Source: Microbulbifer harenosus
GTDB lineage: Bacteria > Pseudomonadota > Gammaproteobacteria > Pseudomonadales > Cellvibrionaceae
Direction: 5' to 3'
NCBI RefSeq assembly: GCF_005771435.1
Contig: NZ_VANI01000019.1
Coordinates: forward strand, 1-64,000
DNA length: 64,000 nucleotides
Below are positions 12,811 through 46,838 of the stretch, piece after piece (the stretch's first letter is position 1; the number at the start of each line of letters is the position of its first letter). The translations under genes were made by a program, and so were the position numbers. The notes below the pieces were generated by a model. It ran no database searches and had not been told where the DNA came from. It saw only the letters and a list, made by a program, of their open reading frames with translations.

Positions 12811-12865
12811 CTTCCGTGCTTCGTAGCTATGAATTCGTTCTGAAGCTGGTTTCGTGGCGGCCCGA

Positions 12866-12963
12866 TGCTGGGTGTTGGGTTTCAGGACCGCTGTGAATAC
12901 ATCCCTGTACGCTCCGTCGCAAACGTCCCTGTTTGCGACGGTCCTGAAACCCAACACCCAGCA
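12866..12963 (-). repeat. Nested-hairpin repeat, copy A
   Basis: The outer arms are a perfect 24-bp inverted repeat (12866-12889 / 12940-12963). An inner 10-bp hairpin (12915-12940, CGTCGCAAAC arms) abuts the right arm. A 25-base unpaired linker (12890-12914) reads GTACAGGGATGTATTCAC on the minus strand. Orientation is minus (arm, inner hairpin, linker, arm). The flank GTGGCGG (12854-12860) is mirrored by CCGCCAC beyond copy B. It lies between pgeF and clpB, upstream of the clpB promoter. Confidence 0.9.
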
Positions 12964-13047
12964 CCGAGCCTTAGCATTAAACCTCAATGCTTCGTATTTG
13001 GTGGGTGCAGGAGAGCTTACTGAGAGACGAGGGGAAAATTGAAGGGG

Positions 13048-13151
13048 AAGTGCTGGGTATCTGTTTTCGAAAGCGTCGGCAACAGGGATGTTGCCGACGC
13101 AGCGTACAGGGACGTATTCAAAGCGGTTTCGAAAACAGGTACCCAGTGCTT
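13048..13151 (+). repeat. Nested-hairpin repeat, copy B
   Basis: 25-bp outer arms (13048-13072 / 13127-13151, three mismatches, each a possible G-T or equivalent pair). There is a perfect 12-bp inner hairpin (13073-13100) with loop GGGA, and a linker (13101-13126) with TACAGGGACGTATTCA. Orientation is plus, opposite to copy A 84 bases away. The spacer between them holds a small AGCATT/AATGCT hairpin. Confidence 0.9.
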
Positions 13152-13189
13152 ACCCGCCACCGGACCTGCTTAAGAAGGAAACCTGAAGC

Positions 13190-33911: not shown

Positions 33912-34007
33912 TGGTTATCTACTTCGGTTGTAGCGCTAAAACAAATTCTTTCGTTCAACTGAACTTCAGCGATAACTGGCTTACGAAGTTCAGAACTAAA
34001 AATCGAA

Positions 34008-34119
34008 GCGGAAGTGATGGGGATCAGGTTTCAAAACCGTCGGCGACATGGACGTCGCCGACGGAGCGTACAGGGACGTATTCACAGCGTTTTTGAAACC
34101 TGATACCCATTGCTTCCGC
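34008..34119 (+). repeat. Nested-hairpin repeat, copy C
   Basis: 29-bp outer arms (34008-34036 / 34091-34119, three mismatches). A perfect 11-bp inner hairpin (34037-34047 / 34054-34064) has loop ATGGAC. The linker (34065-34090) contains TACAGGGACGTATTCAC. Orientation is plus. The arm-side flank GCCACCGGAC is shared with copy B. Confidence 0.9.
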
Positions 34120-34185
34120 GCCACCGGACGTAGAACAGAGCTCTAATATCGGACCCCGGGGTCCCAGCTCGGCCAGTTCGGTGGC

Positions 34186-34296
34186 GGCAGAGCACCGGGG
34201 ACAGGTTTTCAGGACCGCGGTGAACCCATCCCTGGGCGCTGCGGCGCAAACATCCTGTTTGCGACGCTCCTGAAAACCTGTCCCCGGTGCTCTGCC
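34186..34296 (-). repeat. Nested-hairpin repeat, copy D
   Basis: Perfect 29-bp outer arms (34186-34214 / 34268-34296), an inner hairpin (about 34241-34265, one mismatch), and a linker reading CCCAGGGATGGGTTCAC on the minus strand. Orientation is minus, facing copy C. The 66-base spacer to copy C is itself palindromic (GCCACCG 34120-34126 with CGGTGGC 34179-34185; 14-bp palindrome GGACCCCGGGGTCC at 34151-34164). A further hairpin, CTTCGCATC/GATGCGAAG, follows at about 34296-34332. Confidence 0.9.
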
Positions 34297-34342
34297 TTCG
34301 CATCTGAGTGTTGGAGTATTCTGATGCGAAGGGGTAATTTCT

Positions 34343-46427: not shown

Positions 46428-46499
46428 TTGCGGCTCTGAAGCTGGCGTGGAGGCGGCTGATAGACTTTTGAAGCGTGGTTCTAAATCAGGTCCGCTGGC

Positions 46500-46610
46500 G
46501 GCGCGGCACCGGGTGCGGGTTTTCCGGACCGCTGTGAACCCATCCCTGGGCGCTGCGGCGCAAACATCCTGTTTGCGACGCTCCTGAAAACCCGCACCCG
46601 GCACCCCGCC
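46500..46610 (-). repeat. Nested-hairpin repeat, copy E
   Basis: 29-bp outer arms (46500-46528 / 46582-46610) with a few mismatches, an inner hairpin (46555-46579), and a linker reading CCCAGGGATGGGTTCAC on the minus strand. The internal ~55 bases are almost identical to copy D, while the outer arms differ. Orientation is minus. Confidence 0.9.
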
Positions 46611-46673
46611 TTCGCATCGCACTTTTGAACTTCGACTCTATTGCCAAAAACGAAGTCGAAAATTCAAAGCTAA

Positions 46674-46787
46674 GGCCCTGCTACCGGGTACTGCCTTGCG
46701 AGACCTTCTAAAACAGGGATGTTTTAGAAGAGCCCCCATGGATGGGTTCACGGCGTGTCTCGCAAGGCAGTACCCGGTAGCAGGGCC
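46674..46787 (+). repeat. Nested-hairpin repeat, copy F
   Basis: Perfect 31-bp outer arms (46674-46704 / 46757-46787). A perfect 11-bp inner hairpin (46705-46730) has loop GGGA, and the linker contains CATGGATGGGTTCAC. Orientation is plus, opposite to copy E. The spacer to E is palindromic (TTCGACT 46631-46637 with AGTCGAA 46654-46660, and flanking TTTGAA/TTCAAA). Confidence 0.9.
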
Positions 46788-46838
46788 GCCATTGAACTCC
46801 ACTACGAAGTGCAACAGTGCCCACAACGAAGTAAAAAA

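Follow-up and report, generated by a model that had tools for sequence, protein, structure and literature searches.

Six copies of a folded repeat lie in the window (the whole 64,000-nt stretch of Microbulbifer harenosus DNA analysed here), and we give about an even chance to the reading that this repeat is a REP-like mobile element, non-autonomous and carried on the chromosome, whose body has an unusual, branched form. The reading draws on a fold revealed by covariation, a strand bias among stem mismatches, intergenic positions behind stop codons, single-copy moves into terminators by one sub-line, and neighbours that lie inverted. The mobile unit would be one copy, namely a folded body of ~130 nt with some 15–30 nt of flank on each side. 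The repeat is class-wide and REP-like and, as far as the literature and databases were searched, structurally new.

With copies oriented so that the GTGGCGG box lies at the 5' end, we found three loci in the window, each with two copies in opposite orientation. Copies A (12849–12978, +) and B (13036–13165, −) share the clpB/pgeF(yfiH) gap, copies C (34000–34129, −) and D (34176–34304, +) the ileS–ribF gap, and copies E (46490–46618, +) and F (46666–46797, −) the gap between ispB and a phosphomannomutase gene; A to E are of core type 1 and F is of core type 2. The sequence-only reading had described the same opposed pairs, with every sign reversed owing to a different reference orientation. Both searches, R1 and R2, matched copies A to D, and also E (144.5 bits in R1, 69.6 in R2) and F (110.5 bits in R1, 104.3 in R2). 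R2 is a covariance model built from the loci of the named-genome scan alone, with own-genome copies left out, and it found all six window copies at 64.6–104.3 bits, which is more than chance. The window gave no Rfam match at the cut-offs; four loci gave sub-threshold matches to unrelated families only.

Across the own genome (G000; 4.67 Mb, 67 contigs), R1 returned 148 matches representing 145 separate places, the three lower-scoring antiparallel matches at the same places being left out; a search of the surrounding stretches added three partners, giving 148 copies. Since R1 scored 150 first-look candidates, the own-genome total is at least 148, with R2 pointing to further places at C42:224507, C21:188302 and C42:105051. 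Four of the 148 copies scored below 50 bits in R1 (C3:62696, C42:127999, C42:313319 and C42:420517). When neighbours less than 400 nt apart are counted as a pair, the copies fall at 111 places, comprising 37 pairs (33 '+−', 4 '−+', none direct) and 74 singles.

One copy spans ~110–130 nt and consists of a GTGGCGG box, a long arm, hairpin 1, hairpin 2, a returning arm and a CCTTCG box, which fold into a Y, or three-way junction, of a copy-specific ~29-bp stem and two short hairpins sharing the loop CATCC(C)TG. In copy E, the long stem arms (46500–46531 / 46579–46610) and the two hairpins lie between the 5' and 3' boxes, and in copy F, the stem is a perfect 31 bp (46674–46704 / 46757–46787). The core exists as type 1 (...GGACCGCTGTGAA..., e.g. 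copy E) and type 2 (...GAGACACGCCGTGAA..., e.g. copy F), to which a motif rule assigned 99 and 49 of the 148 own copies, respectively. In the mechanism we propose, a single strand would adopt this junction, with the ~29-bp stem nearly perfect and the two CATCC(C)TG-loop hairpins beside it.

RNAalifold applied to 33 own copies gave 41 pairs, 27 of them compensatory. We retested the fold on an alignment of 53 copies from other genomes (53 of 60 references), using a structure named by the analyst. In this alignment, 90.1% of all cells were paired, compared with 54.7% after shuffling and 33.8–43.1% after sliding, and covariation over all 35 pairs was 0.839 versus 0.185 for the shuffled control. 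Within the long stem, 93.6% of cells pair, 21 of the 22 pairs showed change on both sides, and 17 of the 22 showed all four Watson–Crick types; hairpin 2 was weaker (77.9%). R2 was derived from this alignment. The fold of the repeat is genuine, and its core is constant while the long stem differs from copy to copy. Stem-arm identity within the own genus still averages 0.63. According to the proposed mechanism, the stem need only pair, so its letters would be free to drift. GTGG stood at the expected 5' position in 123 of the 148 own copies, and by eye, the copies of other genomes showed no common GTRG foot.

An extra small hairpin (about GGGCTAGGCGCCCCCC) adjoins hairpin 1 in 18 of the 148 own copies (e.g. 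C42:388722, C2:83360), and five of the same set contain a different GC-rich hairpin (GGCCCGGCCGCT...) within the body. These extra hairpins are small palindromes nested within the repeat.

Recent insertions and empty sites

Three single copies (C42:189532, C67:144797 and C6:169413) are 98.5–99.2% identical to one another. Their similarity ends at GTAATGGTGTTCACTTA... and ...TAAGTGAACAGCATTAC, which are imperfect inverted ends, and the copies are accompanied by target duplications: GGAAAACGCC (C67, 10 bp), GCCATTGGC (C42, 9 bp) and AGCCWAAGCT (C6, 10 bp, one mismatch). By eye, the flanks of all three are the two halves of an intrinsic terminator, and the relative G001 has an unoccupied terminator at the place of C42:189532. 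A similar unit with like ends sits in a terminator in G015, and the own genome contains truncated pieces, at C67:228711 and C11:19838, that retain one end or both (all by eye).

Over all 111 places, the best-TIR score was 6.87 compared with 6.76 for shuffled flanks, and a score of at least 10 was reached in 6 of 111 versus 7 of 220. Since inverted ends do not in general exceed the level of shuffled flanks, the copies that have them represent one recent sub-line, which may be special; inverted ends on every copy were rejected as a general rule, and this counts against the REP-like reading.

Another source of the ends and duplications could be a cut-and-paste (DDE) transposase acting on a unit bounded by the inverted ends GTAATGsTGTTCACTTA; the repeat would then be a MITE passenger whose hairpin body has another role or none. 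We regard this as rather unlikely, and it is compatible with the explanation we prefer. The three recent copies resemble MITEs in their inverted ends, their target duplications and the lack of a gene, and the G015 copy has the ends, whereas nearly all other copies of the repeat are without them. No long autonomous element with these ends turned up in a pattern search covering 29 genomes, the own one included, and the strand-specific pairing and class-wide fixed core would be left unexplained.

Of 31 places on C42 and C10 set against G001 and G046, two dropped out of the comparison for lack of flank, and a further two were absent from G001. In the nine site alignments viewed, several places were empty in one or both relatives with no clear duplication, the cleanest being C42:266222. 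By eye, the first copy at C42:429257 had the same outer stem in G000 and G046 and both hairpins of the other kind, and the second copy at C42:342897 had both arms changed yet still pairing.

Gene context and strand bias of the long stem

Genes were called with a home-made codon-usage gene caller, and 110 of the 111 places proved intergenic: 82 between same-direction genes, 24 convergent and 4 divergent, compared with 313, 58 and 82, respectively, for baseline gaps of 40–700 nt in the window and relatives (p = 4.6 × 10^−5). At the 82 same-direction places, the upstream stop codon was a median of 37 nt away. Replichore bias was absent in G001 (p = 0.81 for all copies, 0.57 for singles; skew from 8–20 kb stretches), which argues against use of lagging-strand single-stranded DNA and is a further point against the REP-like reading.

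Among the 4227 long-stem cells of the 148 own copies, 362 were non-Watson–Crick. On the + strand, these were 213 A-C, 87 C-T, 27 C-C, 5 A-A, 3 T-T, 5 G-T, 2 G-A and 20 gaps; the minus strand correspondingly has G-T, G-A and G-G, with almost no A-C, C-T or C-C. Many of the A-C cells fall at stem positions 7 and 8, and when these are left out, the bias is still 93 versus 5. In 92 copies from other genomes, A-C exceeded G-T by 134 to 18 (p = 4 × 10^−23), and the G-U:G-A:G-G ratios were alike (213:87:27 in own copies, 134:54:14 in the others). The orthologous ileS site gave 49 A-C, no G-T and 17 other cells. Copies oriented with the host gene (80:2) and against it (75:3) showed the same bias, and read-through RNA of the host gene was rejected as its cause on this ground. 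Because copies lie both ways, an orientation-blind mutation process should not produce such a bias, whereas a strand that folds by itself would. The mismatches are strongly strand-biased regardless of neighbouring genes, so one strand is probably read in the folded state, and the bias provides a handle, from sequence only, on which strand that is.

Relative to a Poisson expectation, perfect stems were rarer among own copies (8 versus 12.8) and commoner in other genomes (15 versus 6.6). The bias might alternatively reflect the need for a bulge in the GTGG strand; passages of PMC8266576 describe E. coli REP as needing a bulge.

The strand that is read could be RNA, with the minus strand transcribed and the folded product acting in place as a 3'-end stabiliser, terminator or regulatory RNA. 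We consider this unlikely. Minus-strand wobble is tolerated in place at orthologous ileS sites, copies sit behind stop codons and avoid divergent gaps, and computed RNA folding, in agreement with the bias, gives the minus strand the greater stability for 115 of the 148 own copies and for 74 of the 92 from other genomes; the corresponding counts for DNA folding are 136 of 148 and 74 of 92. However, a bias that is independent of host-gene orientation cannot be explained by host read-through, and the inner stem is almost without G-U though all pair types are present there. G-A and G-G are tolerated beside G-U, which, judged by the mismatch stability order and the mutation spectrum, fits DNA better. 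No promoter-like site was found at locus 3, a result of little weight since shuffles averaged only 0.1. If the elements are RNAs, they constitute a large missed RNA family.

From the G-A and G-G tolerance, we infer that the strand read is more likely DNA than RNA. Within the REP-like reading, a putative structure-reading enzyme would bind the minus strand at its constant core (5'-CGAAGG...CCGCCAC-3').

Inverted pairs and their spacers

All 37 own pairs were inverted (p about 1.5 × 10^−11 versus 1:1), with gaps of 41–110 nt in 35 of them and of 22 and 353 nt in the remaining two. Two of the four copies below 50 bits sit in pairs, so that 35 of the 37 rest on stronger copies. Random placement of 148 copies (500 trials, with intergenic space assumed to be 12% of the genome) gave a mean of 14.8 and a maximum of 25 near neighbours, compared with the 37 observed. 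In relatives, 9 of 9 pairs were inverted in G001 (70 pooled places), as were 10 of 10 in the stretches of G046 examined (by eye). A fuzzy core search of 80 loci from named genomes found 96 copies in 65 loci; here, 24 neighbours less than 400 nt apart comprised 18 '+−', 3 '−+' and 3 direct (21 of 24 inverted), the direct ones counting against the REP-like reading. The opposite-orientation rule for neighbours is real and strong. It had been claimed from the window that no copy is alone and no pair is in tandem: the genome-wide copy list bears out the absence of tandem pairs in the own genome (0 direct of 37), whereas half of the listed copies (74 of 148) are single. Passages of PMC3733652, PMC3116915 and PMC8266576 describe REP dimers as mostly inverted, with tandem dimers negligible, and as lying near stop codons, with TnpA-REP reading one strand; the orientation rule is thus a known REP trait.

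For the 74 singles, neither R1 and R2, run on the surrounding stretches, nor a scan for any palindrome within 160 nt brought up a partner, with the exception of C12:39273, where the neighbouring partner is a hairpin with another core type. As a control, the palindrome scan recovered 67 of 74 known partners, indicating that it may overlook a few partners and would overlook heavily decayed ones. The hairpins beside C12:39273 and at C42:420517 have a different core (about TCCACAACCTCATCGGCAATCGTTCC) and likewise adjoin a normal copy.

The majority sequence of the type-1 3' flank is gAAtTTtTg.aCTTCGTAag; CTTCGTA is exact at +10/+11 of this flank in 31 of 99 type-1 copies, and 11 of all 148 copies have it in the 5' flank, at −10 to −12. 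When copies lie tail to tail, CTTCGT...ACGAAG arises by itself, and when they lie head to head, GCCACC...GGTGGC does; gaps of 41–50 nt equal two such 3' flanks end to end. The palindromic motifs pointed out earlier are all in place: GTGGCGG at 12854 with CCGCCAC at 13154, the 14-bp palindrome GGACCCCGGGGTCC at 34151–34164, and TTCGACT at 46631 with AGTCGAA at 46654. The spacers had been taken as self-complementary in themselves; the sequences exist, but not as separate features. GCCACC/GGTGGC in the C/D spacer (34130–34175), which holds the 14-bp palindrome as well, is the 5' box, and in the E/F spacer (46619–46665), CTTCGACT at 46630 and AGTCGAA at 46654 are two 3' flank motifs in inverted order (consensus CTTCGTA). 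For the most part, what makes the spacers palindromic is the end boxes of the copies themselves, mirrored through the inversion. The orthologous spacers of G046 and G001 lack the 14-bp palindrome. Elsewhere, the 3' flank of C11:51573 holds CATTCCGGCGCAGGCCGGAATCCAG, which we take to resemble an ordinary CGTC-1/dRS3-type REP, so that at least three families of palindromes seem to be present in the own genome.

The ileS–ribF site was examined at 30 loci (of 48 genus genomes, own included), and the pgm site likewise at 30 loci. At ileS–ribF, both copies were present in 15 of 30 and neither in 14 (among them L136, where a remnant of D can be seen), one contig ended there, and one copy alone was never seen; the gap in L137 is of intermediate length. 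Over 15 genomes, at least two Watson–Crick types occurred at 16 stem positions in copy D and at 3 in copy C. At the third locus (the pgm site, E/F), both copies were present in 7 of 30 and one only in at least 4 of 30 (L168, L171, L173 and L176), with L162, L156 and L175 ambiguous owing to distance, contig edge and weak score, respectively. Partners were no more alike in their stem arms than random copies (identity 0.61 versus 0.63), and a pair as the inverted duplication of one copy was rejected on this basis. By eye, one copy of the pair C1:163994 is 93.8% like one of the pair C67:288083, and their partners differ.

These data bear on whether the inverted pair itself moves and is selected, as a REPIN would be, with singles as its remnants. 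The uniform opposition and narrow spacing of the 37 pairs are in line with such a unit, and the SBW25 strain of P. fluorescens is described in passages of PMC3116915 as having mostly inverted REP doublets and more diverged singlets. The ileS–ribF pair, wholly present or absent in the 29 genomes with an uncut site, behaves as a unit, favouring this explanation and counting against the REP-like reading. We nevertheless hold the REPIN-like explanation to be quite unlikely: the recent moves are of single copies, only one palindromic partner was found beside singles, the stems of partners are unrelated, and one-copy states occur at locus 3 in relatives. The sequence-only reading had suggested that function or mobility belongs to the pair rather than to the single copy, a suggestion that is not supported here, with half of the copies single, the three clearest transpositions single and partner stems unrelated. 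Ends and 9–10-bp duplications were defined for those three single copies; the ileS–ribF pair speaks in favour of the suggestion. A dimer as replicative unit, which distinguishes REPINs, was not encountered apart from this contrary case. In the REP-like reading, pairs would arise when an incoming copy inserts tail to tail beside one already present, the two ends abutting, and direct neighbours would be either not made or lost.

Distribution and relation to known systems

The repeat was found in 27 of 38 genomes, own included, with a patchy distribution in the genus (0 to at least 90 matches; G000, G001, G017, G020 and G024 being rich in copies and G002, G003, G008 and G009 poor), and order-wide sampling found it in 48 of 145 genomes (34 of 91 genera). 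A pattern scan of genome contigs gave at least 118 stretches; among the 80 matches listed were Xanthomonas, Stenotrophomonas, Marinobacter, Rheinheimera, Arsukibacterium, Halopseudomonas, Marinimicrobium, Haliea and Lysobacteraceae, and the family also reaches Pseudomonas. Counted as R2 hits in 15 named genomes and G000, where both-strand hits of one place may count twice, there were 121 in S. maltophilia PC315, at least 150 in each of two Xanthomonas genomes, 146 in Marinimicrobium agarilyticum, 23 in Marinobacter algicola, 1 in Pseudoxanthomonas jiangsuensis, 11–50 in nine others and 141 in G000. The repeat is thus large and abundant in well-studied genera, yet has no Rfam match at the cut-offs (window) and no description that we recognised among the open PMC papers searched. 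Metagenome bins named Klebsiella pneumoniae (L306, L307, L312 and L322) carry the repeat, the E. coli set being without it, and these bins may be misnamed.

No match was found in 72,556 plasmid records, nor in IMG/VR (exact pattern), the phage set or the E. coli set. Static chromosome sites for a structural protein, spread by recombination only, would agree with the plasmid, IMG/VR and E. coli results and with core modules that differ between orthologous copies as if exchanged, but the empty sites in close relatives and the recent copies with target duplications make them very unlikely.

Returning to the REP-like reading, the repeat shares with REP/BIME/REPIN elements, as portrayed in the published passages, its many chromosomal palindromes near stop codons between same-direction or convergent genes, its inverted dimers with tandem dimers rare, and, in part, spacers whose ends are complementary. 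A further likeness would be the recognition of one particular strand in its folded, single-stranded state, which those passages describe for TnpA-REP/RAYT. REPs are described there as simple hairpins of 20–40 bp with a shared family sequence and a RAYT gene flanked by REPs, whereas the present repeat is ~110–130 nt long and branched, with three helices, a variable stem and no adjoining RAYT in the own genome. REPs are said to bind several proteins (passages of PMC2817692).

Another likeness is with the CGTC-1 REP dimers of Halothiobacillus neapolitanus in PMC3733652 (2013), where passages describe two hairpins inside a longer (41-bp) palindrome and 'attcacgGGT' beside the 3' arm (compare ATTCAC/TTCAC in the repeat). 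Compared by printed consensus alone, the CGTC-1 palindrome differs from the repeat in having one consensus; these palindromes may be an early sighting of a relative.

We found no partner enzyme, which counts against the REP-like reading. The own genome has three PF01797 genes, none with the element within 260–300 nt on either side and one flanked by ordinary GTAG REPs, and seven further RAYT loci in other genomes were likewise without it (by eye). Among copy-rich genomes, PF01797 was absent from G011 and G021 and represented by one gene below the cut-off in G001. An ordinary RAYT–REP system built on this element was therefore rejected for the own genome, its PF01797 genes not being flanked by the element.

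Integron attC sites are sequence-variable hairpins with a kept structure, of which one strand is read, and they lie behind genes. The repeat resembles them in its variable sequence and kept structure and differs in that its constant part is the inner core. A more far-reaching reading, to which we give rather less than an even chance, is that the repeat is an uncatalogued, class-wide family of DNA sites that fold and are recognised strand-specifically. The core would be fixed and the long stem would drift freely in each copy, representing the attC/REP principle in a third, branched form, not seen on plasmids or phages, that would be kept in place and copied by a putative structure-reading enzyme of gammaproteobacterial chromosomes. 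The fixed core could serve as bait for finding this enzyme, which, if it exists, may have a new structure-specific DNA-handling activity.

Two minor observations concern the RAYT-like genes themselves. At L253 (C11:126500–131000), a 152-aa RAYT-like gene has ordinary GTAG REPs inverted on both sides. In relatives (L256, L257 and L258), what lies ahead of each PF01797 gene is a truncated repeat of the gene's own beginning together with its upstream region, which looks like a duplication of the gene start.
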